From NCBI GenBank assembly GCA_028281465.1, contig JANQJV010000148.1, positions 1 to 42,215 of the forward strand: a stretch of 42,215 nt of DNA, given 5' to 3'. The notes beneath the pieces are model-generated. The model searched no databases. It was not told the origin of the DNA and worked only from the letters and a program-made list of their open reading frames with translations. This document shows, one piece after another, positions 16,927-31,152 of this stretch (position 1 is the stretch's first letter; every line of letters starts with the position of its first letter). This DNA is from Azospirillaceae bacterium (GTDB lineage: Bacteria > Pseudomonadota > Alphaproteobacteria > Azospirillales > Azospirillaceae). The position numbers and the translations under genes were made by a program.

Positions 16927-18147
16927 TCAGGTTCTTCGGATAACCAGGGCCGTCAGATCGTCGTCCAAGGTTCCAACGGCAGCTAATTCGGGGAGCAAAC
17001 GGGGGAGCAAATCGTCATCGTTGGTCTCGATCAGAAGTCGGGCCGCCATGGCAACGAATCCCTCTTCATCCAGGATGCCGTTGCCAACTGCGATCTCCGT
17101 TGCCGCGTCACTATACAGAAAGATACTGGTGCCGCGTCCGAACCCAAGCTCCCGGTTCTCGTAGGTTGCCCGTGTGGTCAGACCGAGCGGCAGCCCGGCA
17201 CTGCCACCCAGCCGCGGGACGCGGTCGCCCTCCGACCAGACCAAAGGGCGGGTGGCCGCCGCCGTCGCGTAGATGAACCGATGGGCCTCTGGGTCAACCA
17301 CGCCCACCAGCATGGTGGCGAATTGACCCTGCGGCAGCAACGAGCACAGGCGCCGGTTGACCATGGCAAGGACGCCAGCCGGATCGTGATCGCCGGCCCC
17401 GATTTGCTGCAGCAGCACATGCAGACGGAACGTGTTCAAGGCCGCCGCCACCCCGTGGCCCGAGAAATCAATGAGCCAGATGGCTTGCCGCCCCCATCGA
17501 TCGGTGAACAAACCCCAAAGATCGCCGCCGAGCTCGGAGGACGGAGCGAAATGGCTGCGAATCACCAGGCCTTTCGCCAAAGCGGCCTCGATCTGTGGCT
17601 GCCGTGGCAGTAGGCGTTGTTGCATTCGGCGCGCCAGATTCAGCTCGGCTTCCCGCCGTCGACGATAGTGTTGCAAACTCATAACCAAAATTCGGTTGCG
17701 CAGGTGGTTGCGCACCCGCGAAATCAGCTCATTCGCATTGATCGGTTTGCTGATGTAATCGGTGGCACCGGCAGCGAAGGCACGGGCCCTGTCCTCGGCC
17801 CGATTCAAGCTGCTTTGCACAAGCACGGGCAAATGCCGGAAAGCGGCCAAGGCGCGCACCCGGCGGCATACTTCGAATCCGTCCAATCCCGGCATCATTA
17901 GATCAAGCAGCAAAAGATCGGGATCGAAATTCGGAAGGCGAGCCAAGGCTTGCATGCCGTCGGACGCAACCTCGACCCATCCGATACCACCGCGTTCCAG
18001 GATGGCGGTCAGGAGGTGCAGGTTGACCTGATTGTCATCGACCACCAAGACCCGAGCACCTTGCAACGCTGTGGCAATATCCTCTGCACGTTCCGTACCG
18101 GACTGCCCCATTTTGCCAGCGACTTGGCTGAGCGGTAAGGCGGACAT
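16927..18147 (-). CDS. Receiver-PP2C phosphatase B (RsbU-type), catalytically complete
   Basis: A 406-residue two-domain protein: a CheY-like receiver at about 31-150 with acidic pair Asp37/Asp38, phosphoacceptor Asp82 in LLDLMMPG, Ser112 and Lys134, then a helical linker and a SpoIIE/RsbU-type PP2C serine phosphatase. The metal-binding residues are intact: Asp209 in LGGDLW, Asp227 in LIDFSGHG, Asp347 in FLYSDAATE and the Asp cluster at 395-397. In partner-switch systems such enzymes dephosphorylate the STAS protein. The receiver would let CheA control it. It is the last gene of the operon and overlaps the previous gene by one base (TGATG). It is a diverged tandem copy of the upstream gene. 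Confidence 0.92.
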   Translation of the reverse strand: MSALPLSQVAGKMGQSGTERAEDIATALQGARVLVVDDNQVNLHLLTAILERGGIGWVEVASDGMQALARLPNFDPDLLLLDLMMPGLDGFEVCRRVRALAAFRHLPVLVQSSLNRAEDRARAFAAGATDYISKPINANELISRVRNHLRNRILVMSLQHYRRRREAELNLARRMQQRLLPRQPQIEAALAKGLVIRSHFAPSSELGGDLWGLFTDRWGRQAIWLIDFSGHGVAAALNTFRLHVLLQQIGAGDHDPAGVLAMVNRRLCSLLPQGQFATMLVGVVDPEAHRFIYATAAATRPLVWSEGDRVPRLGGSAGLPLGLTTRATYENRELGFGRGTSIFLYSDAATEIAVGNGILDEEGFVAMAARLLIETNDDDLLPRLLPELAAVGTLDDDLTALVIRRT

Positions 18148-19343
18148 CAGGGAGCCGCGATCCAGACCAGCGTGTGGTCGTCCGCTGGATCCTCGCCGAT
18201 CAACGCAGCGCAGGCCGTCGCAATCCTTTCAAACCGTCCGGCGGCCGGAACGTCCGCAACGGCCCGGACCACCACATCGGCGAAACCCAGATCCGGTGAC
18301 GGCCACCCAACGGCGTCGAGCACAGCGTTGCTGAACAGCAGGATACCCGTACCCGCTGGCACCTCCATCCGCACAGCATCATACCGAACCTGTGCGGACA
18401 CACCGATCGGTGGTCCCGTCGACGCGCGCGGCACGACAGATCCGTCCGTAGACACCAGAAGAAAGCCACTTGCTGCTGCACCGGCATAGGTGAAATGCCG
18501 GTCCGCCATGTCAACCACGCCGTACAGCATCGAGGCATGGGCCCCATCGTCGAAGATTTCCGTCGCCTGCTGATTCACCGCTTGCAAGAACTCGGACGGT
18601 GCCAAGTCCGACCCAATGAGCTCCTGCAGCACGGTGTGCAGTCGACATGCGTTGAGCACACTGGACAATCCGCGCCCAGCCATGTCGATCACATAGACAG
18701 CCGCAGCCTGGGGACCAAGAGGCACGACTCCCCACAGATCGCCGCATAACTCGGCAGCTTCGATCCTCTGCGACCGCACTTCAAGCCCGGTGTCCGCCAC
18801 AATGCGTTCGAGCATGCCGGAGCCGGGCTGGAGTTGGCGGAACATCTCCCGCGCGACGTCCAGTTCCCCCTCCAAACGCTGACGATAGTGGCGCAGATCT
18901 CGGATCAGCAGCCGGTTCTCCAAATGGATGCGCGTACGGGCGATCAGTTCGGCGCGGTCAAGCGGTTTGCAGATTAGGTCATCGGCGCCGACCTCAAAAG
19001 CCATGTTGCGTTCATCGACGCCGTTGAGCGCGGTTTGAACCAGGATCGGTGTGTCGGCAATTCGGGGGTCGGACCGTACCCGACGGCACACGTCGAAGCC
19101 GCTCAGGCCAGGCATCATGACATCGAGAAGAACGATATCCGGTTGCTCCTCCGTGATCTGCTTGAGCGCATCAAATCCGTCTGCGGCGTAAACCAGGTTG
19201 TGAAAACCTTCGGCCATCAGCATGCCGCCAATGAGCATTCGGTTCCATTCCACATCGTCGACCACCATGACTCGGCAGCCGTGGATCGGCAGGGCCGTCG
19301 CGTCGGTCCCAATCTCGCGCTCAAACACGTCGGCGCCAGTCAT
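18147..19343 (-). CDS. Receiver-PP2C phosphatase A, degenerate metal site
   Basis: A 398-residue protein with the same layout as its downstream neighbour. The receiver is intact: Asp29/Asp30, phosphoacceptor Asp74 in LLDVMMPG, Thr104 and Lys126. In the PP2C part Asp202 (CGDLW, where GGD is usual), Asp220 (VIDMAGRG) and the terminal DDHT motif are kept. The conserved TDG-type motif reads SNA at 338-340, so one metal-binding Asp is replaced by Asn, and the GHG turn is GRG. Activity may be weak or lost, making it a possible decoy or regulatory partner of the intact copy. The start is the ATG in a TAATG overlap with the HATPase gene stop, five codons inside a longer frame. Confidence 0.9.
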   Translation of the reverse strand: MTGADVFEREIGTDATALPIHGCRVMVVDDVEWNRMLIGGMLMAEGFHNLVYAADGFDALKQITEEQPDIVLLDVMMPGLSGFDVCRRVRSDPRIADTPILVQTALNGVDERNMAFEVGADDLICKPLDRAELIARTRIHLENRLLIRDLRHYRQRLEGELDVAREMFRQLQPGSGMLERIVADTGLEVRSQRIEAAELCGDLWGVVPLGPQAAAVYVIDMAGRGLSSVLNACRLHTVLQELIGSDLAPSEFLQAVNQQATEIFDDGAHASMLYGVVDMADRHFTYAGAAASGFLLVSTDGSVVPRASTGPPIGVSAQVRYDAVRMEVPAGTGILLFSNAVLDAVGWPSPDLGFADVVVRAVADVPAAGRFERIATACAALIGEDPADDHTLVWIAAP

Positions 19344-20092
19344 TAGAGTTCGAACCATGTGCGGATGCGGCGACCGCCATCCAAGATGGCGACCTTCTCA
19401 GCCGCAGCCGCGATCAACTGCAGGCCGCGCCCCCGGGCGCCTTGCTTCGGATGATCTGAAGCCAGATAGCCGCCCCCCTCGTCAAGCACCTCCACTGTCA
19501 CACCCCGGTCGTCCAACTCGAATGACACTTCGACCCGGCGCCCTGCCAGCCGCTCATCCGCCAGTCGGTCGACAAAACTGGCAGAAAAAGCATCCAGATC
19601 GGTCACATTCATGCCCATGAAACCTTCGATTTGAAGGTTACCATGGATCAAAGCATTACTAATGGCCTCATGCACAGCAAGCTCCACATCCTCCCGCCTG
19701 GACTTGGCAATCTGACGATGTTGCGCAAGGCGCGCCATCAAACGATTCGCCAAAAAAACCTGATTCGCCGTTGCACTGGTCAAAGAAACGAAGAGACTCT
19801 TCGCAAGCGCCCGATCGATCAAGGATCGAACGGCGTCGTCACCCAGATTACCGGGTTCGATCCAGGCCACCTGTGGCGCCGTCCAGCTCTCCTCGAGCTC
19901 GCCGTCCCCGTCCGGCGCCAACAAGACAACCACGCGATCGGACCCTTCCAGCCCAACGCGCCCAGCGCGCAGCCAAGCCTCCCAGACCGGCAAGCCACAC
20001 AATGCGGCGAGACGACGGCCGTACTCCACCGGGAGGCCGATGGTGTGGAGGGCGACAAACGACGCGGCGGGCACGTGGTCCCACCTAATCAT
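19343..20092 (-). CDS. HATPase anti-sigma / switch kinase (RsbW/SpoIIAB-like)
   Basis: The C-terminal half is a GHKL ATPase of the partner-switch type: N-box ELAVHEAISNALIHGN (Glu142, Asn146), G1 box LDEGGGY (204-208) and G2 box GARGRGL (218-224). Such proteins phosphorylate the cognate STAS protein on Ser and bind an output partner such as a sigma factor. Unusually, about 115 residues precede this domain, with a strand VVVLLAPD near residue 55 and no recognised fold. The gene overlaps the STAS gene upstream by eight bases and the phosphatase gene downstream by one, so STAS, kinase and phosphatase are co-translated. No sigma factor gene lies in the window, so the output partner is unknown. 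Confidence 0.88.
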   Translation of the reverse strand: MIRWDHVPAASFVALHTIGLPVEYGRRLAALCGLPVWEAWLRAGRVGLEGSDRVVVLLAPDGDGELEESWTAPQVAWIEPGNLGDDAVRSLIDRALAKSLFVSLTSATANQVFLANRLMARLAQHRQIAKSRREDVELAVHEAISNALIHGNLQIEGFMGMNVTDLDAFSASFVDRLADERLAGRRVEVSFELDDRGVTVEVLDEGGGYLASDHPKQGARGRGLQLIAAAAEKVAILDGGRRIRTWFEL

Positions 20093-20390
20093 CTATTGTG
20101 ATTAGCTTGCCCAATTGAGCCACCGTGAACACCCGTTTGACCTGTCCGGTCGCCCCGCGAAGCACCAGCTCCTTGCTACGGTTGGCCAATTCCTCGCGCG
20201 CGATGAGCAACATACCGATTCCTGCCGAGTCCACGAATTCCAGTCCGGATAATTCGAAGATCTGTCGCTTGGTCTCGTTGTCGCACAATTCCCGGATCAA
20301 GGCCCTTAGACTGGCATGATCATTGAACGTCAGCCGGCCACTCACGCTGACGATGGTTTCCTGGTTTTGGATTTGGGTGTAATGGTCCAT
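20085..20390 (-). CDS. STAS-domain anti-anti-sigma-like protein (RsbV/SpoIIAA-like)
   Basis: A single STAS domain of 101 residues. The phosphorylation motif is FVDSAGIGML with Ser55 right after Asp54, matching the phosphorylated Ser of RsbV (Ser56) and SpoIIAA (Ser58). In a partner switch the unphosphorylated form binds the HATPase kinase and frees its target; the kinase inactivates it and the PP2C phosphatase restores it. All three partners are encoded in a row here. It begins 50 bases after the soluble MCP-like gene and overlaps the kinase gene by eight bases. Confidence 0.92.
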   Translation of the reverse strand: MDHYTQIQNQETIVSVSGRLTFNDHASLRALIRELCDNETKRQIFELSGLEFVDSAGIGMLLIAREELANRSKELVLRGATGQVKRVFTVAQLGKLITIDD

Positions 20391-20440
20391 CGTACCGTGT
20401 TCCCATTCATTCGCTCAGCATGCCGTCCGGGCTCGTCTAC

Positions 20441-21610
20441 TCAGAACAGCTCGACATCGCCAGCCGGATCCGCTTCGGCTCCCACCGTCACCTCGAGCAC
20501 ACCATGATCATCCAAGGCCGATCCCTCCAGGAGCATCCGGCGCACAAACCGCTGGCGAACTTCTCCGAGTGTGAAGCGCTCCAACAATTGGTCGAGCCAC
20601 TCCTTTGGAAACCTTGGATTCAAATCCGGCGGCAGAAGGCTCCGGGTCTTGACCACCAAATCATCCAGACCGGCCGCCACCACCGACAAGCTGTCACCCA
20701 CATGTTCCAGTTGCTGCTTCGTCAAGTCCTGGAATTGCATTCCAGTTATCATAAGTCCAATGTTATTTGAGATCTGGTCTGACGATGCAACCGCGTTCTC
20801 AAGAACGCTTTGGAAGTGGTTTGTCTGTCGGACAAGGCTCTCCATGGTCTTGTCGACCCGCTCCTTGGCCAGCATCTGCGGCGACATGTCGGTGTTGGCG
20901 ATCAAACGCAGGATATCGTGACCCTGTCGGATGCCGCCGACCACAGCGGTGACGCGACCGCGCATGCGGTCGGCCAATTCGCTCGTGCTGCGCGACAGGT
21001 GGCGGACCTCGTTGGCCACGACAGCGAAAGTTCGGCCGGCTTCACCGGCCCGGTGCGCCTCGATTGTGGCATTCAGAGCCAAGAAGTTCGTCTGCCGGTT
21101 GATTTCGTCGATGTCCGCAATGCTGGCCTCAAGCGCCACGGCGTCCTCTTGCACGTCGTCGAGCAGATACACCATGCTCATCGCCTTCTTCGACAGTGTC
21201 ACGATATTGTTGATCATCTCGGTGATCAACGCCTGCATCGACGTCACCACTTCATCGAGCGGCACCTGTTCGTCATCGATGACCACCGATTGTGCCAATC
21301 CAACGATTTCTTCTACCCGCCTCGACTGGGTGCGCGCCGACTCTGCCAGTTCCCGAAACCGGGTGCTCAGCTCCAACGTGCTGGTTTCCACGACGCCGGC
21401 CACATGGGTGAGCTCGGCCTGCAGCCCGACCAGGGTGCGCTTTTGCACCTCCGCAAATCCCACCCACTGAACCAAGGTTTCGCCGGGCCCGTCCGGTCTC
21501 GAGTCACCGGGCGCCGACCCGTCCAACCGGACCGCCGAAAGCTGTTCCGCATCGATGATTGGGCCTGAATCCGAATCTGGCACGATGCCGCAACGGTCCT
21601 GCATTGCCAT
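20441..21610 (-). CDS. Soluble methyl-accepting chemotaxis-like protein
   Basis: A 389-residue protein with no membrane segment. The middle carries an MCP signalling hairpin, [19 protein letters not shown] followed by [18 protein letters not shown] (about 160-205), which would insert into CheA/CheW arrays. The tip differs from consensus ([12 protein letters not shown] instead of EAARAGE..GRGF). A later part, [14 protein letters not shown], resembles a segment common in cytosolic chemotaxis accessory proteins. The N-terminal 50 residues are polar and probably disordered. The ATG overlaps the cheB stop (TAATG), which fixes the start. It may be a cytoplasmic receptor, or an adaptor between the array and the partner-switch genes that follow. 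Confidence 0.82.
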
Positions 21611-22683
21611 TACTGAGTGCCCCGCGCCATGCGCTGTTCGTCGCCGGATCGATCCAGTGCGCGCATGAGCTCGCCGGCAATCTTGGAAAGCGGAACTTCG
21701 ACCGCTACGGCCCCGCATTGCCGGGCGATGCGCGGCATACCGTAGACGACGCAGCTCGCCTCACTCTCGCCGATGGTGGCCGCACCAGCACTACGCATGG
21801 CAAGCAGACCGTCAGCACCATCACGCCCCATCCCGCTCAGAATGATGCCGACGGCATCATTACCGGCCGCCTCGGCAACCGACTGGAACAGCACGTCGAC
21901 CGACGGACGATGGCCGCTCACCGGCGGACCGTCCGAAATCCGGCAAACATAGCCCTGCCGATCACGGATCACGCCCAGATGACGGTTGCCAGGTGCCACC
22001 GCCGCAGTGCCCGGGCCCAAGCGCAGGCCCGGTTCCGCCAATGCCACAGACAGCGCACTCAATGAGTCCAGTCGGGCGGCAAAACTGGCCAGGTAACTCG
22101 GCCCCATATGTTGCGTGATCACGACCGGCGGCACGTCCGAGGGCAGTACGGAGAGCAGATCACGAATCCGCTCCACGCCCCCCGTGGACGCACCGATCGC
22201 GACGATGGCTCCGGCCACCCGACGGCGTGGCGTCGCCAACGGCTGCAGACGCCGCTCCACCCGCCGGCTCGGCCGCGCATGCGCCGCCATCTTCACCTTG
22301 GCAATGAGTTCCGATTTCAAGGCCTCAAAACCGTGTCGGTCCGTCGCGATCGGCTTTTCCACATAGTCCACCGCACCCAGTTCCAAAGCCCGAACCGTGG
22401 CTTCGGACCCCTCACGCGTCAAACTCGACACCATGATCACTGGCGTCGGACGCAACGTCATGATCTTTTCCAGAAACGAAAGCCCATCCATGCGTGGCAT
22501 TTCCACATCCAAGGTCACGACATCTGGATTTGTTGCCTTGATCTTCTCGCGCGCCTCATACGGATCGCGAGCCGTGGCCACAATCTCGATCCCGGCATCC
22601 GCAGACAGCGCTGCCGTGAGGAACTGCCGAATGAACGTGCTGTCGTCGACCACGACGACACGGATCGGCCGGGTCACGATCAA
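21610..22683 (-). CDS. cheB: Chemotaxis response regulator protein-glutamate methylesterase CheB
   Basis: CheB removes methyl groups from receptor glutamates and deamidates glutamines, giving adaptation. The N-terminal receiver has phosphoacceptor Asp59 in [12 protein letters not shown], activated by CheA. The C-terminal esterase carries the triad Ser166 (GASTGG), His192 (TQHMG) and Asp288 (GMGRDGADG). The length of 357 residues is normal. The start overlaps cheD by four bases. It is paired with CheR, and with CheD just upstream, so the array is adaptation-competent. Confidence 0.96.
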
Positions 22684-23306
22684 TCCTCCGAGAAAAGCTC
22701 CACATCGCCTTCGATGGGTTTGCGTCGCAGGGAGGACAGGAAGCGCAGCTCCTGGTCCACCGTCTCCGAAAGCGCTTCAGGTCTGAGGATGCGCCGGAAT
22801 GCACGCCCGGTCACGGGAAAATAATGGACACGGCGGGCAAACGTTCCACCCAGATCCTTGCCCACCACGATCATCCCTTCGCGGTCAAGATAGTTCAGAA
22901 CGAATTCGACATTCTTGTTCCCCACATCAAGGCTACTGTTGATGACCTTCGCGCCACCGAACACTTTGGCCTCGAGCCGTTGCCGACGACCGCCACGCTG
23001 CAGAATATCATTGATCAGACGCTCCATCGCGACGCTGCCGTAGCGCGCGGCCGCCTGGTGATCACTCTGCTGTCCTTCCGGCACCTCAGGCAAGAGAAAG
23101 TGATTCATGCCACCCACAGCGACCACGGGATCGCGGATACAGGCCGCCACACAACTGCCCAAAGTCGTGACCAACATTTCGTCAGCACGGCTTGATATCT
23201 GGTGTTGCCCGAGGAGAACCTTGAGTGTGTGCGCATCGAAACGCGGATGAAAGAACCCGCCACCGGATCGGGCCCGCGCCGGGATGCCACTCTGACCGCG
23301 CTCCAT
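22680..23306 (-). CDS. cheD: Chemoreceptor glutamine deamidase CheD
   Basis: CheD deamidates receptor glutamines to glutamates and can modulate CheC-type phosphatases. Its catalytic Cys52 is in TTLGSCVAACI and His69 in GGMNHFLLPE; the motif KVFGGAKV follows. At 208 residues it is longer than the usual 160-200 because of a C-terminal tail of about 40 residues. The tail ends in DVELFSED, and the soluble MCP-like protein of the operon ends in a similar acidic DVELF. It overlaps cheR by one base and cheB by four. Confidence 0.95.
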   Translation of the reverse strand: MERGQSGIPARARSGGGFFHPRFDAHTLKVLLGQHQISSRADEMLVTTLGSCVAACIRDPVVAVGGMNHFLLPEVPEGQQSDHQAAARYGSVAMERLINDILQRGGRRQRLEAKVFGGAKVINSSLDVGNKNVEFVLNYLDREGMIVVGKDLGGTFARRVHYFPVTGRAFRRILRPEALSETVDQELRFLSSLRRKPIEGDVELFSED

Positions 23307-24283
23307 TACGGCACTCGCCGGTATATGGTAGCCCCGATCTGCCGGAACCGGGACGAAACGCCGTACAAACTCTCCGAATGACCAAGATAGAGGTACCCAC
23401 CCGACACCAAAAACCCGTGAAACCGCTCGATGACCGTCGATCGACCCGGGCGATCGAAATAGATTAGCACGTTGCGGCAGAAAATGGCATCGAACGGGCC
23501 GCGCATGGGCCAGTCCTCGAGCAGATTGAGCGGCTTGAATGTGATCAGTCGGCGAAGTTCTTCACCCATCTGCAACCTGTCCGTCCCGTCGGTGTGTCGC
23601 TGCGTCCGGGTGAATCGGGTCCGGATCTCCTCTGGTATGCTCACCGCCGACTCGATCGAGTAAGAGCCACGGCGCGCGGTCTCCACCATATGCGTGTCGA
23701 TGTCGGTGGCCAGGATGCGCGCATCCCATCGCGGCAAATTCCCAGCCAACTCGGCAGCCACGACCATGGCCAATGTGTAGGGTTCCTGTCCCGACGAACA
23801 GCCGGCCGACCAAAGACGCAGCCGCGGCCGACCACGGTCCGCCTGGCGTTTCGCGACCTCGGGCAGCGTCACCTCGCCCAAATGCCGGAAGTGGTGCGGC
23901 TCTCGATAGAAATTGGTCAGGTTGGTCGTCAGCGCGTTGACCAGATAGGCGAGCTCGTCGTGGCCATCCGGGCCATCCAGCAGCGCACAATAGGCGTCGA
24001 AATCGACCAATCCCAAAGCCCTGAGTCGGCGTGCCAACCGGGCGTACATCATCTCGATCTTGTGCGCAGCAAGATGGATGCCGGCTAACCGATACAGGAG
24101 TCCAGCAATATGATTGAAATGCTGCCTCTCGAATCGGAACTCGCGCGCCCGTTCCGACGCGTCGTCCGTCACCCGTTGTTTCGACAGGTCGACAACGTGA
24201 GACGATGTCAACGCGCCATCTCCCACAGTGGGGGGGCCAAAAGACCGATTGCGGGCGCCGCCTTGATGAAAGTCATGCCGCAT
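23306..24283 (-). CDS. cheR: Chemotaxis protein methyltransferase CheR
   Basis: CheR transfers methyl groups from S-adenosylmethionine to receptor glutamates. The SAM-binding motif is [17 protein letters not shown], followed by ILATDID and the family block [14 protein letters not shown]. An N-terminal helical domain with [13 protein letters not shown] precedes it. The first 45 residues are an extra polar stretch. The start overlaps the MCP stop by 11 bases, and internal starts cannot be excluded. No C-terminal NWETF-type tether peptide is present on the neighbouring receptor, so CheR probably acts without tethering. Confidence 0.95.
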
Positions 24284-27212
24284 GCTGGCGCCGCTGGCGC
24301 ATCATGTCGCGAAGGTCGGTGGCCAATCCATCGATGGAGCTCGCGACACTATGCGAGGCCCGGTGCATGTCCTCGCAGGCGCGCCGTGCGCCAACGTGGT
24401 CACCCTGGCTGGCCAGACGCAAGGCCTCCCGACCCGATTCGTGAACTTGCCGGTGGGGGGCCTCCAAAGCGGCATAGTGGCGGTTGCCGCGCACGTCAGG
24501 GTCCGACACCCCATAATACCATCGTCCAAGCCGACAGGAATGGTGATCAGGTACCTCCTCCGCAGCCATGCTGCGCCGGCCGTCGATCGCCTCATCGATA
24601 CCACGGCAGAACGTCTCATGGTCGACCCTCGTGCCCTCGACCAGCGCGGCATCGTGGGCTAGTCGGCCGTCCAAAGATTGATTGTTCTTGTCGACGACGA
24701 AGAACGCCATCTGGTCACGCAGCAGATCGGCCTGGGTTTCCATGGAGCGCGCCGCTGCCGTGCTCTCCTCCACCAAAGCTGCGTTCTTCTGCGTCATCTC
24801 GTCCATTTGCGCCACGGCAGTATTGATTTCATCGATCCCGTTGGCCTGTTCGGCGGTGGCGCGGGCGATTTCACTAACCAGATCAGCCACGCGGGTCACG
24901 CCTGAGACGATTTCCTGCAGCGCCTCGCCGGCACTACGGACCAGATCAACGCCTTCGCGCACCTGGCCACTGCTGTCGTTGATAAGCGCTTTGATTTCCT
25001 TGGAGGCCTGTGCCGAGCGCTGCGCCAATTGCCGCACCTCCTGGGCGACAACCGCGAAGCCACGCCCGGCATCGCCAGCCCGTGCCGCCTCGACCGCCGC
25101 ATTCAACGCAAGCAGGTTGGTCTGGAATGCGATCTCGTCGATCACCCCGATGATGTCGCTGATCTTCTGCGATGACGCCTCGATGCGTTGCATGGCCTGC
25201 ACGGCGTTGCCGGCCACGCGGCCACCCTTGTCCGCGGCCGTGCGGGCATCCTCGGCCACCCGATTGACCTGTTGGGCGTTCTCGGCGTTGCTCCGCACCG
25301 TGGCGGCAAGCTGCTCCATGGACGCCGCGGTTTCCTCAAGGCTCGAGGCCTGTTGCTCGGTGCGTTCCGACAGGTCTTGGCTGCCCGCCGCCACCTCGCT
25401 GGCCGCCGACATCATCGTTGCAGTGGCGTCGTTAATACGCCCAACGATTTCGCTCAATTTCGTTGCGGTGGCGTTGAAATCGTTCTTCAAGCGCTGGAAA
25501 ACGCCATCATAATCCTTGTCGATGCGCCGACTCAGGTCACCAAACGCCAACGACTCAGCCATTCCCGCCAACTCATTGGTGACGTCGGAGACATTCTGCG
25601 CCAGAGAGTTGATTCCTTCGCTCACCGTGCGGAAGAAGCCGGTCTTGCCCTCCAAGCTGATTCGCCGCGAAAACGAGCCGCGCACGGCTTCACCCACCAT
25701 GGTGTTGATCTCTTCCTCCACCAGCAGCTCCTCGGTCATGTCACGCCACTCGATGACAGTGCCGAGCCGCTCGCCATGCTTGCTGTGCATAGGGTTGGCA
25801 ACCACCCGAAAAATCCGCCGACCTGCCTGTGCCTTGCCATAGTGGGTCTGCTCCAACGCCTCTAGCAGCCGGCGCTGGTGCGCCGGATTTTTGTGGAACA
25901 GATCGATGTTCTTCCCGACCAGGGTCCGCGCCTCGAAATGTGGGATCGCCTTGCGCACATCGGCCTCGGCGTCAATGAACATTTGGACGATGGCGGGATT
26001 GACGTAGGTAATGATGCCCGACGCATCTGCCATCATAATGTTGGACGACACCTGGTTAAGGCCGGTGCTGGTGCGCACGGCATCGACCGCCACCTCCTTC
26101 AACGCCGCCGTGCTGCGCGCCATGGCAGCGATCTCGTCGCCACCGTCGGTGTGCGGAATGTCGACATCCAGATAACCCTCAGTGAGGCGATCCAAGGACC
26201 GCCGCAAGGCATCGACTGGCCGGGTGATGCTACCGGCGATCCAGCGTGCGGCAATGCCTCCCAAGACCAGAGAGATGATGGCGATCAGACCGATGAGTAA
26301 TTGACCGAAGCCGATGTCATCGGTGGTTCTATGCTGGATCGCCGCTTGCTCGTTTTCCGTCTCAACGCTGATCTCATGGGCGGTTTCGGCCAATTGCCGG
26401 CCAATGTCGCTCATCACCTGATCACGCAGACGCACCACTTCCGGGGCAATTCTGGCCACGTCAGCAAAGGCCCGAATGTATTCGCCCCAGTTGTCGCCAA
26501 TGGTCGTGACTAGGCGCTTGCGGCCCGGATCCTGAATCTCCGCCTGCAAACGATCGAACGCTTCGGCGAACGCCGTCGCGGCCGCATCGACCCGGTCCCG
26601 AGCCTTCATGTCGCCCAACCCGAGGAAGCGATTGGCGTTGAAGCGAATCAGTAGCCATTCCCGCTCCGCCAGGGAGGCGACATAGGATGCGGCCGCGTCG
26701 TCGTCCGCGAATGCGGTGGATTTGATCTCCGCAAAGGCTTCGGTGATGCGCGCACCGATCGGGTCCATGCGCGTGCGCAAAAGCTCGTCCTGCTCTAGGC
26801 GAACCCGTTCCAGCCGGTCGAACTGCCGCCCATACTCGGCATAAAGCTGCGCAAGGCGTTCGAATTGCGCTCGATGCTCAGACCCCACAATCAACACCTC
26901 GGCGGCCGCTGTACGGGCCTCGAAGGCACGCCGCAATTCGTTGACCCGAGCCGCAGAGTCTTCGTCGCCGGTCAATCCAAAGTTCCGTGAGGCAATGCGC
27001 AGCTGCGCCATACGCGATTCCAGATCGCGCGCCAAAGTCCCTTCAGCAGCCTTTGCGCCGAGCATGCGGACGTCGTGGGCGGCCCGGTCGAACCCGAACC
27101 AACCAACCGCCACCTGCACGAGTAGCAAAATCAGCAGCGTTCCAAAACCCATCGACAGCCGTGCCGAGATGCTTGTTCTCGCCAGGGCAACACCGAGGTT
27201 CTGCACAGCCAT
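24273..27212 (-). CDS. Methyl-accepting chemotaxis protein with PAS and CZB domains
   Basis: A transmembrane receptor of 979 residues. Order: cytoplasmic start, membrane segment 1 (about 21-43, [19 protein letters not shown]), a helical periplasmic sensor of about 260 residues, membrane segment 2 (about 300-325), HAMP, a PAS domain (about 388-500, [15 protein letters not shown]), a second HAMP-like region near 550, the signalling hairpin near 700 ([17 protein letters not shown]), and a C-terminal CZB zinc-binding domain. The CZB ligands are His in VDHETF, Cys in [10 protein letters not shown] and the pair in HRQVH, the expected His-Cys-HxxxH set. ATG at 27212 starts right before the basic stretch; a longer frame reaches 27251. 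It is encoded between cheW and cheR, so it is the cognate receptor. Confidence 0.93.
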
Positions 27213-27295
27213 TCCCGTCGTCCCCAAAAACCACGTGTCGTCGCACCACACGCCTCGCCGTCCCGACCCAAACCGCCGCCGGCGGCCGAGATCGA

Positions 27296-27886
27296 TCAGA
27301 CACCGATGGTCGCTTCTTCCGTTTCGACGTCGCCAGTGACGGCGGCAAATAGCCGCTCCACGTTCAAGATCGTCACCATCCTGTCCGCCCCGGTATAAAG
27401 TCCGCTCAGATACTGGGCATTGATCATACCAGTCTCCACATCAGGCGGCGGTTGGATCTGATCACGCGATACCGTTACAATATCGGAGATCGCATCCACA
27501 AGGATGCCACGCGTCCGCTCCCCGATCTGTATCACCACCACCACATGCCGTTTCGTCACCTCGGTCGCGCCGCCGCCGAACCGGGCGCGCAGATCGAAGA
27601 TCGGAATAATCACACCGCGCAGATTGACCACACCACGCACGAAGTCGGGCAAATTGGGCAGACGGCTTTCCGGAGTCCAGCCGCGAATCTCGCGCACGGA
27701 AAGAATCTTGATTCCGTACTCTTCGTCGCCAACCGTGAAGGTCACATACTGCTCTTCCGTCGCCGGTCCACCTGGAACAGCGGGTTCGCCACGGGCCGCA
27801 TCGCCGCGCGCCCCCCCGGCCTGGACGCCGGCCTGGACGCCGGTCTGGACCGGGGCCATCGGTGTGGAGGAAACCAGTGAGTTCAT
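27296..27886 (-). CDS. cheW: Chemotaxis adaptor CheW
   Basis: CheW couples receptors to CheA. The conserved fold is seen in [21 protein letters not shown], then [22 protein letters not shown], the standard receptor-contact region, and [10 protein letters not shown]. The 196 residues include an N-terminal extension of about 45 residues rich in Gly, Ala, Pro and Val, encoded partly by a 12-base tandem repeat. It follows cheA after two bases and is followed by the receptor gene after 83 bases, the largest gap in the operon. Confidence 0.95.
27819..27854 (-). repeat. 12-base tandem repeat inside cheW
   Basis: The unit GCCTGGACGCCG occurs at 27819-27830 and 27831-27842, and a diverged third copy at 27843-27854. 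In the protein it gives repeated Val-Gln-Ala-Gly near residue 17. Slippage would lengthen or shorten the disordered N-terminal tail in steps of four residues without changing the frame. Confidence 0.7.
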
Positions 27887-27888
27887 GG

Positions 27889-30156
27889 CTAGACCTCGAC
27901 CGTTTGGATCGGCGACACGGGGGGTGCCGCCAAAAGTCTTGCACGTCCCGACGATGACCGCCGGTTCATGTCCTGCACACCAGCGACATCCAGGATCAAA
28001 GCCACCCGCCCATCACCCAAAATGGTTGCCGCCGCCACGCCGTCGAGCCGTCGGAAATTCGCCTCCAGGCTCTTGATGACAACTTGTTGCTGACCCAGCA
28101 CCTCATCCACCACAAGGCCGGTGCGTTCGCCGTTTTCCGCTTCGACCAGCACCACCAGCGCTTCCGTCGGGTCTAGCACCGCACCTGGAATACCAAACAG
28201 CTGGTGCAGATAGACCAGCCGGACATACCGCCCACGCGCCATCATGACATCGCACCGGTTGACCAAGCTGTGCAGGTCGTTGTGTCTTGGCCGCAGGCTC
28301 TCGACGATATTGGTAAGCGGCAGGACGAAGCGTTCCGCCCCGACCGAGATGACCATGCCATCCAGCACCGCCAAGGTCAGCGGCAGCGACAGCACGAAGC
28401 GGGAGCCCTTGCCTGGTGCTGAGAACACGCTGATGCGGCCGCCCAGATTGGTGATGTTGCGCCGCACCACATCCATGCCGACACCACGCCCCGAGATGTT
28501 GGTCACCTTGTCGGCCGTTGAGAAACCGGGCTGGAAAATCAGGTTGTCGATCTCCTCATCCGACAAACCGGAACCGGACGGTATCAGACCGCGTTGAACC
28601 GCTTTGGCCAAAACGCGCTCGCGGTCGATGCCACGGCCGTCGTCGGCAACCTCGATCACAATTCGGCCCGACCGGTGTTGCGCCGAGAGATGAACGGTGC
28701 CACGCGTCGATTTCCCGACCCGGCGCCGGTCCTCCGGCGATTCAATCCCATGATCGATGGAGTTGCGGATCATGTGCGTGAGCGGGTCCACCAGGTTTTC
28801 AATCACCGTCTTGTCGACCTCGGTGGCCTCGCCGCTCATTTCGAGATCAACCTCTTTGTGCGTGTCGCCCGCTAGCTCCCGCACCAGGCGCGGCATGCGG
28901 GCAAACACCGACCCGACCGGCTGAGCGCGAATCGACATGACGCTTTCCCGCAGCTCGCGCGTGTGTTGGGCAAGCTGTTCCAAGCCTTCCTGCAGATCCT
29001 GAAACGACCCCGGCGGCAGGTCGCGGACATGTTCCGCCACCATGGCCTGGGTAATCACCATTTCCCCAACCATGTTCACCAGACGGTCGATCTTGTCGAG
29101 ATCGACGCGGATCGTGTGAACTGCGAGTCCGCCATCACCGCCGCTGGCGCGGCGACGGTCGGCGGTCGCGACGGTCCCCGTCGCCGATACTGTCGCTGAC
29201 GCCGCCGCAGCCTCGACTGAGTCCGCCTTCAGCGAAGCATCCGCATCCGAAACCATATCGATCGAGCTGTCCGTATCGCCGGACGCCACCTCGGTCGTGA
29301 TCTCAAGCGAGGATTCGTCGCTGACGAACTCGAACACGTCCTCGATCTCAGCCACCGCTGCATCCGTTGTCAGACGGACCCGCCACGACAAGAACAGATG
29401 TTCCGGCTCCAAATGGGCAAACGGCGGCACTAACCCCGTCTCGCAGGTGACCGCGATCGTGCCAAGCCGGGACAAGGCGCGCATCAGGAAAACAGGATCA
29501 TTCCCACTCAGCAACAAATCCGGCTTGGGAATGAAGACGATGGTGTAAGTTTGTTGATCCGGCGTGGTGACCACCGGCACCAAACCACCTGCCCCACGCC
29601 CGGCCGCCTGGGCCGATGTCCCAGCCGTGCCATCGACCAATCCAGTTTCAGGACCCTCCGTATCGTTGCTCGGGGTGGGGTCGGCGGGCGCCCTCTCGGC
29701 CGCTGAGTCCGCTTCGTCGTCATCCTCAACATTGAACCGACGCAAGGCTTCAACCACGGGCGCCGAGAATTCGTCCGGTGGCTTTCCGTCGTCACGGGCA
29801 TAAGCGACGAGCTGTGCTAAGACGTCGTTGGCCCGAATGAGGGTATCCACCAAATCGGTGGTGATCGGAATGCGGACGGAACGCACCAGCTCCATGACCG
29901 CCTCGAACTCGTGGGCAAAAGCAACAAGCTCGGTGAATCCGAATGCCCCCGCGCCACCCTTGATGGAATGGACGGCACGGAAAACGGCGTTAACCTCGTC
30001 GTCATCCACCTGGCCCGGTGCCAAGCGCAGCAGCCCTGCTTCAGCCACGCCCAGGAGCTCGGCGCTCTCGTCGAAATAGGTCTGTTTGAACTGGTCGAGA
30101 TTGGTCACCACCCGTCTCCCCCCGCGCGCCGGCGGCGGCGGCCCCGTGTCAGCCAC
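27889..30156 (-). CDS. cheA: Chemotaxis histidine kinase CheA
   Basis: This array kinase phosphorylates CheY, CheB and probably the receiver-PP2C proteins. The Hpt domain has His63 in AVHSIKGGAGAFGF. A second domain near 205-290 (FIPKPDLLLSGNDPVFLMRAL) resembles the P2-like segment seen in related kinases. The dimerisation region is near 345-410 (DKIDRLVNMVGEMV), with HATPase boxes HMIRNSIDHGIE (about 462), DDGRGID (about 505) and GRGVGMDVV (about 553), and a C-terminal CheW-like domain from about 610. All parts needed for activity are present in 755 residues. The GTG start overlaps cheY by eight bases. Confidence 0.96.
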   Translation of the reverse strand: MADTGPPPPARGGRRVVTNLDQFKQTYFDESAELLGVAEAGLLRLAPGQVDDDEVNAVFRAVHSIKGGAGAFGFTELVAFAHEFEAVMELVRSVRIPITTDLVDTLIRANDVLAQLVAYARDDGKPPDEFSAPVVEALRRFNVEDDDEADSAAERAPADPTPSNDTEGPETGLVDGTAGTSAQAAGRGAGGLVPVVTTPDQQTYTIVFIPKPDLLLSGNDPVFLMRALSRLGTIAVTCETGLVPPFAHLEPEHLFLSWRVRLTTDAAVAEIEDVFEFVSDESSLEITTEVASGDTDSSIDMVSDADASLKADSVEAAAASATVSATGTVATADRRRASGGDGGLAVHTIRVDLDKIDRLVNMVGEMVITQAMVAEHVRDLPPGSFQDLQEGLEQLAQHTRELRESVMSIRAQPVGSVFARMPRLVRELAGDTHKEVDLEMSGEATEVDKTVIENLVDPLTHMIRNSIDHGIESPEDRRRVGKSTRGTVHLSAQHRSGRIVIEVADDGRGIDRERVLAKAVQRGLIPSGSGLSDEEIDNLIFQPGFSTADKVTNISGRGVGMDVVRRNITNLGGRISVFSAPGKGSRFVLSLPLTLAVLDGMVISVGAERFVLPLTNIVESLRPRHNDLHSLVNRCDVMMARGRYVRLVYLHQLFGIPGAVLDPTEALVVLVEAENGERTGLVVDEVLGQQQVVIKSLEANFRRLDGVAAATILGDGRVALILDVAGVQDMNRRSSSGRARLLAAPPVSPIQTVEV

Positions 30157-30514
30157 ACACCTTCTGAACCACGGAAATCAGTTTCTGTGGATTGAACGGC
30201 TTCACGATCCAGCCTGTGGCACCAGCGCTGCGTCCCTCGGCCTTCTTCTTCTCGTCGGCTTCGGTCGTCAGCATGAGGATCGGTAGCGTGCGGTAGCTCG
30301 GATTGGCCCGCAACCGCCTGATCAGGGTCAGCCCATCCATGTTCGGCATGTTCACGTCGGCGATGACCAAATCCACCTTGGTGCCGGAGATGACCGTGAG
30401 CGCGTGCTGCCCGTCGTGGGCCTCGATCACATCGTAGCCCGCGCTCTTCAGCGTGAAGCCGACCATCTCGCGGATGGTCCGGGAATCGTCGACGGTCAGG
30501 ACCGTTTTTTTCAT
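30149..30514 (-). CDS. cheY: Chemotaxis response regulator CheY
   Basis: A single receiver domain of 121 residues with acidic residues Asp9 and Asp10, phosphoacceptor Asp53 (VIADVNMPNMDG), Thr83 or Thr84 and Lys105 (IVKPFN). It would be phosphorylated by CheA and either bind an output or act as a phosphate sink. It lies between a STAS gene (four-base overlap) and cheA (eight-base overlap). Whether it binds FliM cannot be judged from sequence. Confidence 0.95.
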   Translation of the reverse strand: MKKTVLTVDDSRTIREMVGFTLKSAGYDVIEAHDGQHALTVISGTKVDLVIADVNMPNMDGLTLIRRLRANPSYRTLPILMLTTEADEKKKAEGRSAGATGWIVKPFNPQKLISVVQKVCG

Positions 30515-30822
30515 CGCGGCTGATGCTCCTCAAGCCACCCACCCAATCCCAGAGACTGGCAAGCCTCCTGCAGCACATCGCTGGCGTCGGTGATGGACAG
30601 GACGCGCCCGGTCAGCCCGGCCTGTCGTGACGCCGCCAGCAGTGTCTGGATGCAGGCGGTGCTGACCCGTTCGACGGCATCGGCCGCAATCTCGATCTGG
30701 TCGCCCGTCTCCAACGCCCGGCGCAGACCTTCGTACAGGTCGCCAGCCATGGCCAGATCGAGATCGGCCGGCAACTGGATGTGCACCAAACCGTTGTGTT
30801 GTTGCCACTTGAGCGGGGTCAT
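30511..30822 (-). CDS. STAS-domain protein at the head of the chemosensory operon
   Basis: A single STAS domain of about 103 residues (HIQLPADLDLAMAGDLYEGLRRAL). At the position where partner-switch STAS proteins have Asp-Ser, this one reads VSTACIQTLLAA: the Asp is missing and a Thr could be the acceptor. It is therefore unlike the second STAS protein of the operon and may be a scaffold or a differently regulated partner. ATG at 30822 is preferred because GGAGG stands nine bases upstream; ATG at 30831 abuts that site. It is the first gene of the 13-gene run. Confidence 0.85.
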   Translation of the reverse strand: MTPLKWQQHNGLVHIQLPADLDLAMAGDLYEGLRRALETGDQIEIAADAVERVSTACIQTLLAASRQAGLTGRVLSITDASDVLQEACQSLGLGGWLEEHQPR

Positions 30823-31152
30823 CGCGCCCATCCTCCCACACCCGTCCCGGACGTCCGCAACGGCCGCGCGAACGCCATGTCCCAGCCGACCGGCGGCCAG
30901 ATCAAGAAATGCTCAATGGGCATTCGATACCCGTTCGTGTAACCGGCCATTGGCGTGGCGTCAATGTGCCTCTCCGCCTGGAGCGCACCGGCCACCGGCC
31001 GATTCGCAACTATACCAGAGGTCAAGCATCCCTGTCCCCCTGGCGGCTTGAGCAGGGCGGGGTGTGCGCCGTTGCCCAGGCTGCGAGCGTGCAGTACCGT
31101 ACTGTTTGGCCACCGATCCGGCCGCAGTGGCCGTGACATACAGGGACACCGC
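30823..31152. promoter_or_regulatory. Divergent control region: che operon / oxidoreductase
   Basis: These 330 bases separate the minus-strand chemosensory operon from the plus-strand oxidoreductase gene and must carry both promoters. The perfect palindrome CAGTAC-C-GTACTG (31092-31104), about 50 bases before the oxidoreductase start, is a candidate operator. No sigma-54 or flagellar sigma-28 box could be identified, and no clear sigma-70 pair. Confidence 0.45.
31092..31104. promoter_or_regulatory. Palindromic operator candidate
   Basis: Perfect 6-base arms (CAGTAC and GTACTG) around one central C, in the spacer between two divergent operons. Size and symmetry fit a dimeric regulator site, but a single occurrence is weak support. 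Confidence 0.3.

Follow-up and report, generated by a model that had tools for sequence, protein, structure and literature searches.

A Che4-type F7 chemosensory operon of Azospirillaceae that may address both the flagellar motor and a partner switch

Stage 1 F7 chemosensory clusters of Gammaproteobacteria contain genes for an anti-sigma antagonist, cheY, cheA, two cheW, an aer2-like gene, cheR, cheD, cheB, an mcpA-like gene, a further anti-sigma antagonist and a serine phosphatase (Ortega 2020, PMC7184735). The chemotaxis machine of Escherichia coli descends from the F7 class, whose ancestral output was called unknown in the same study (PMC7184735). The F7 che1 locus of Shewanella oneidensis encodes the partner switch formed by CrsR and CrsA, which controls RpoS (PMC9855816; PMC6482189). 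In Azospirillum brasilense, the Che4 system was classed as F7, with a receptor, Tlp4a, that carries a PAS domain between HAMP domains (PMC6759762), and swimming reversals are under the control of CheA4 and CheY4 (PMC8100600). Here we analysed a stretch of 42,215 nucleotides from an Azospirillaceae bacterium, hereafter the window, which is one whole contig (C283; JANQJV010000148.1) of a 6.3 Mb assembly that is 97.5% complete; the relatives of the source genome, searched by order, belong to the Azospirillaceae. Thirteen minus-strand genes within positions 16927-30831 form what is almost certainly the F7 operon of this family. We read it as a Che4-type F7 operon with two outputs, motor and partner switch, with a probability of roughly 0.6.

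The thirteen genes and the domains assigned to them in a preliminary description of the window were all found, every named domain scoring above its Pfam cut-off. In the order of transcription they are the following.

30511..30822, minus strand: STAS1, a single STAS domain, CheS-like (Pfam STAS_2, E 1.9e-13)
30149..30514, minus strand: CheY response regulator (Response_reg, E 2e-29)
27889..30156, minus strand: CheA histidine kinase of class F7, with Hpt, dimerisation, HATPase and CheW-like domains (domains and tree)
27296..27886, minus strand: CheW adaptor (CheW, E 7.5e-39)
24273..27251, minus strand: main chemoreceptor, Tlp4a/Aer2-like, with HAMP, PAS-like, HAMP_2, MCPsignal and C-terminal CZB domains (Pfam)
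23306..24283, minus strand: CheR methyltransferase (CheR, E 3e-59)
22680..23306, minus strand: CheD deamidase with a conserved C-terminal GDVELF tail (CheD, E 1.9e-28)
21610..22683, minus strand: CheB methylesterase (CheB_methylest, E 5.3e-56, and receiver)
20441..21610, minus strand: McpA-like soluble receptor-like protein with the tail GDVELF (MCPsignal, E 2.4e-22)
20085..20390, minus strand: STAS2, anti-sigma-antagonist-like, predicted phospho-acceptor Ser55 (STAS, E 1.6e-15)
19343..20092, minus strand: HATPase switch kinase, RsbW/SpoIIAB-like, with an N-terminal extension of ~100 amino acids (HATPase_c_2, E 1.6e-14)
18147..19358, minus strand: RP1, receiver-PP2C, probable pseudophosphatase (domains and residue check)
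16927..18147, minus strand: RP2, receiver-PP2C phosphatase with intact catalytic residues (domains and residue check)

The order is that of the stage 1 F7 cluster (Vibrio cholerae cluster III; PMC7184735), and the CheA proteins fall in the same clade. Indeed, in a maximum likelihood tree of 39 CheA kinase cores, one clade of 23 unites the window CheA with that of E. coli and those of gammaproteobacterial F7 clusters (support 100/99). Outside this clade lie the second CheA encoded by the source genome and the second paralogues from the gammaproteobacterial genomes. This placement makes the system class F7, as the preliminary description had supposed. In comparison to the stage 1 cluster, the window has one cheW instead of two, a HATPase on its own protein, and two receiver-PP2C genes, one of them degenerate. 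In the gammaproteobacterial loci STAS2 is followed by a single protein of about 565-585 amino acids that combines receiver, PP2C and HATPase; this fusion was seen in three gammaproteobacterial loci (L150, L152, L157) and in two alphaproteobacterial ones (L098, L099), whereas the domains are split in the window and in Azospirillaceae.

The string STAS1-cheY-cheA-cheW-mcp-cheR-cheD-cheB-McpA-STAS2-HATPase-RP1-RP2 was found in this order throughout the Azospirillum and Skermanella genomes. In other Alphaproteobacteria it recurs with one receiver-PP2C gene, often without a detectable HATPase. Since the order recurs in all these groups, it is far beyond chance; a chance string or an artefact is thereby ruled out, and the preliminary expectation that related genomes would hold the same string was correct. 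Three loci of a genus of metagenome-assembled genomes (g4; L036, L038, L039) keep the remaining operon, but no receptor orthologue was detected between their cheW and cheR. We also observed, in some Azospirillum, an extra pair of HATPase and receiver-PP2C genes at most about 3 kb from the F7 operon on the opposite strand (L040: 11-1385 and L054: 17851-19201).

From its class F7, its gene content and the presence of the operon in A. brasilense, the window operon would be the orthologue of Che4. Family, class and receptor type are alike, and two records named A. brasilense (L243, L247) share the full gene order with the window, in which the CheA kinase core is 82% identical to that of A. brasilense. 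The HAMP-PAS-HAMP_2 layout of the window receptor resembles that of Tlp4a; however, the window represents a distinct genus, and its receptor carries a CZB domain and ends in RRQHAA, the W-x-x-F pentapeptide being missing. CheY (D9, D10, D53, T83, K105) and CheD (C52, H69) keep their conserved residues. The two Che4 studies discuss CheA4, CheY4, CheW4 and Tlp4a but not the partner-switch genes at the end of the operon, the words 'STAS' and 'phosphatase' appearing in neither (PMC6759762, PMC8100600).

The joining of chemosensory genes to a partner switch, as put forward in the preliminary description, is not novel: this is the published stage 1 F7 layout, and S. oneidensis che1 pairs F7 with CrsR and CrsA (PMC7184735, PMC9855816), so that the idea of a chemosensory input to a partner switch has already been published. 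The siaABCD genes of Pseudomonas aeruginosa, invoked there as a parallel, are a less suitable one than CrsR-CrsA. The CrsR-CrsA system of che1 and the HsbR-HsbA system of P. aeruginosa have in common with the window a STAS antagonist, a HATPase kinase/anti-sigma domain and a receiver-controlled PP2C, and CrsR and CrsA sit within an F7 locus as the window switch does. On the other hand, the window splits the domains over two genes and its PP2C is duplicated. With the layout known, the details that seem unreported are the probably dead phosphatase RP1, a CheZ-like motif in the McpA-like protein and a tail which the latter has in common with CheD.

In the mechanism that we propose, the receptors would tune CheA, and phosphorylated CheA would feed CheY to cause flagellar reversals, as suggested by A. 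brasilense genetics, and would also feed the receivers of RP1 and RP2. Phosphorylated RP2 would then dephosphorylate STAS2 at Ser55, and dephosphorylated STAS2 would capture the HATPase, freeing or engaging some target. The step from CheA to the RP receivers stands at even odds. Azospirillum is amenable to genetics, and since its F7 system acts on the flagellum as well, a single operon could show how a chemosensory kinase divides its signal between motor and partner switch.

Several observations weigh against a second output of this kind. The operon contains no gene for a target such as a sigma factor or a cyclase, and RpoS, the target in the gammaproteobacterial systems, cannot be assumed for an alphaproteobacterium. 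The receiver of P. aeruginosa HsbR is fed by HptB, not by a CheA (PMC6482189), so that other kinases could phosphorylate RP1 and RP2. A few McpA-bearing F7 clusters have no partner switch nearby (L086, L094, L270), and the source genome holds at least two further STAS-HATPase-receiver-PP2C sets, which makes cross-talk possible. One of them, on contig C77 (L375: 6335-8691), stands alone near a PAS histidine kinase gene. These points, above all the HptB precedent, the stand-alone set and the clusters L086 and L094, would be expected if the operon held two separate devices, the chemosensory genes driving the flagellum through CheY and the STAS-HATPase-PP2C receivers being fed by another kinase. 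We consider such a separation rather unlikely: the linkage has persisted in Azospirillaceae as well as in other Alphaproteobacteria and in Gammaproteobacteria (in 25 of 30 named loci with an McpA-like gene, this gene is followed by STAS2 and also by a receiver-PP2C gene), the starts in the window are coupled or overlapping, and we detected no additional kinase gene in the cluster of the window. The other additional set, on contig C146 (L374: 4219-6478), lies behind the second chemosensory cluster of the genome and is separated from its cheR by SPFH/Band_7 and NfeD genes. The corresponding position in two relatives, one an Azospirillum and the other of the Skermanella group, showed no such set, and for this reason we did not use the C146 set as evidence.

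The residues of the switch itself are well preserved, and the complete module announced in the preliminary description is indeed present. The phospho-site of STAS2, D54-S55, reads DS in 48/48 sequences. The HATPase keeps E142, N146, D204, G206, G208, G221 and G223 (the D-G-G and G-x-G boxes). In RP2 the receiver pocket is intact, and the motifs GGD, DFSGHG, YSD and DD are kept across 18 rows.

The two receiver-PP2C proteins had been described as two phosphatases, which holds for the catalytic residues of RP2 but not for RP1, which has lost a catalytic Asp and is probably inactive. The SDG-motif Asp of SpoIIE-type PP2C binds catalytic metal. The window RP1 has Asn in its place, and none of the 18 duplicate-bearing loci examined keeps the Asp, with Asn, Thr and Val among the replacements (SNA, STA, SVA, NNA and others); the Asp of the DMAG-type first motif is likewise lost in several of the loci (L042, L047, L049, L050, L053, L055). 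Its receiver pocket is nonetheless intact (D34, D35, D79, K131). Because the predicted metal-binding Asp is gone from every duplicate-bearing locus, we regard RP1 as probably a pseudophosphatase with a working receiver, which could serve as a phosphate sink or as a competitor of RP2. RP1 could conversely be active through a different metal ligand, both PP2Cs acting on STAS2 or on different STAS proteins; the GGD and C-terminal DD motifs remain in most copies and the gene has been retained. This is improbable, given that single-copy relatives keep both the SDG-motif and the first-motif Asp.

The first STAS protein had been counted as part of the partner switch, and this we could not uphold. Its profile matches the open reading frame directly before cheY in rhizobial clusters, the position of CheS, a protein reported to help CheA tell two CheYs apart (PMC12654446), and the Thr of its VSTAC motif is replaced by Ala in some orthologues. 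Since it is nearer to CheS in profile and in position before cheY-cheA, and its phospho-site is not conserved, STAS1 is probably CheS-like and outside the switch.

The ninth gene encodes a protein resembling methyl-accepting chemotaxis proteins (MCPs). It carries an MCPsignal domain, ends in a conserved C-terminus other than W-x-x-F and adjoins cheB in an F7 cluster; on its sequence it is thus an alphaproteobacterial member of the published McpA-like family, in which the soluble MCP-like protein of the preliminary description finds its place. Further members were recovered by profile searches in both Alpha- and Gammaproteobacteria. The McpA of P. aeruginosa and V. cholerae was reported with a transmembrane region, whereas the window protein looks soluble. 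Its gene likely starts at the ATG at 21610, within the TAATG that ends cheB, which gives a 389-amino-acid protein; the 109-bp overlap listed for it is an artefact of an annotated start placed too early. Residues are numbered below on the longer, 425-amino-acid form.

Residues 328-335 of this protein read QFQDLTKQ. Q328, F329, D331 and Q335 are kept in 46-47 of 48 diverse sequences, the DxxxQ pair D331/Q335 in 47/48, and D277 is invariant. The motif QFxDxxxQ occurs in 28/29 McpA-like open reading frames and is absent from 68/68 ordinary receptors. It resembles the active segments of CheZ, FQDLTGQ in E. coli and FQDITGQ in the CheZ of Azospirillaceae. When the McpA-like and CheZ profiles were aligned, 44 columns matched, D and Q falling on their counterparts (pairwise E 3e-4); an ordinary MCP control gave E 0.52. 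The McpA-like protein shares with CheZ and CheT a DxxxQ in a C-terminal helix, and with CheZ the F-Q before the D, but it differs from them by an MCP signalling tip and a greater length. The Pfam CheZ model found no significant match in McpA-like proteins (best E 1.8, in 3/14), and for this reason we do not claim common descent with CheZ.

Could this protein act on a phosphorylated receiver? Stage 1-2 F7 clusters have no cheZ (PMC7184735), and rhizobial clusters carry a further DxxxQ protein, CheT, for which activity on phosphorylated CheY has been reported (PMC12654446). On these grounds a CheZ-like role is plausible: the McpA-like protein would dock at the receptor array via its tip and may strip phosphate from at least one receiver of the operon through its DxxxQ site. 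We put this prediction forward tentatively. The protein may instead be a soluble receptor or an array spacer only, with QFxDxxxQ and the tail serving structure or CheD/CheR docking, to which we give slightly less than an even chance. Sequence and model both mark it clearly as an MCP, its Pfam CheZ score is poor, and P. aeruginosa McpA was reported to join the F6 array, the F7 array not needing McpA (PMC7184735). What such a role would leave without a reason is the near-universal motif that ordinary receptors lack, its alignment on the catalytic segment of CheZ, and the missing cheZ. The predicted structure is of low confidence (predicted local distance difference test score, pLDDT, 67; predicted template modelling score, pTM, 0.34), with a disordered N-terminus; fold comparison hits ordinary chemoreceptors, and CheZ is not resolved. 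A search for a CheZ link with FQDLT returned nothing relevant in the main texts of the open-licence literature. Two further features were observed: the low-confidence model places a short beta hairpin inside the N-terminal helix (residues 144-153), unusual for a chemoreceptor hairpin, and one locus (L099: 8598-10688) has two McpA-like domains in one open frame, QFxDxxxQ being lost in the aligned copy.

The C-terminus of McpA was found to be conserved, with a Val at the aromatic position of the CheR tether, and its role was called unclear (PMC7184735). McpA-like proteins end in [VI][DE]LF, GDVELF in the window, and CheD ends in the same way: G200, E203, L204 and F205 are conserved in 49 CheDs, and 67/69 named alphaproteobacterial CheDs have [VI][DE]LF within their last residues (close variants such as IEFF counted). 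Elsewhere the tail was seen in 2/539 other chemosensory open reading frames and in 0/68 ordinary receptors; 32 of the latter have W-x-x-F at the end instead. It is also present in gammaproteobacterial CheDs and in several beta-type clusters without McpA, and absent from a short CheD class (L215, L217, L218). As far as our searches go, a tail peptide common to CheD and McpA-like proteins is new; DVELF gave nothing relevant in the same literature. In the source genome, the exact stop-terminated tail had one match, the MCP-like gene, and a reversed-pattern control had two, a result uninformative on a wider set.

Three ideas on this tail were discarded. It is not limited to McpA and CheD of stage 1 clusters, as the CheDs of rhizobial, Caulobacter and beta-type clusters that lack McpA have it too. 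A partner within the switch module is unlikely, the clusters without STAS2 or PP2C nearby (L086, L094) having kept the tail, and so is a role as CheR tether, since P. aeruginosa McpA, with Val at that position, does not bind any of four CheRs (PMC7184735). The tail persists where no switch is nearby (L086, L094) and where no cheB is visible (L102, L103), so that its partner is likely CheA, CheW, CheR or CheY. It is possible, if doubtful, that the CheZ which F7 systems lack is in fact the McpA-like protein, as a phosphatase made from a chemoreceptor hairpin, and that the tail docks this protein and CheD on one partner. If so, signal removal would be physically part of the array, and a common docking partner would tie adaptation and signal termination together. 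The motif and the tail offer testable answers to two open points, the role of the McpA C-terminus and the switching off of CheY in F7 systems (PMC7184735).

The tail was also met outside F7 operons of this layout. In two genomes of the Skermanella group (g13), a second, isolated McpA-like gene lies apart from any chemosensory genes (L045: 6415-7485 and L051: 10929-12032) and keeps the tail as GVELF and EIELF. A different cluster type (cheA, cheW, McpA-like, STAS2, receiver-PP2C, cheB, cheR, cheY; L145, L153, L154, L155, L156) has no cheD in the fetched stretch, and GD[VI]ELF is present there too.

The junctions of the window operon are mostly overlapping, as first described: gaps of 2, 44 and 50 bp occur and all others are overlaps of 1-16 bp. 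For STAS1, the ATG at 30822 (codon 4), chosen in the preliminary description, is probably a better start than 30831 because it aligns with the starts of orthologues. A sequence scan, which is not decisive, found no terminator-like site 3' of RP2 and one weak promoter-like match ~180 bp upstream of STAS1. The flanks have no signalling link: on one side lies a divergent indolepyruvate-ferredoxin-oxidoreductase-like gene, and on the other, after about 1.1 kb, a sodium:solute symporter gene.

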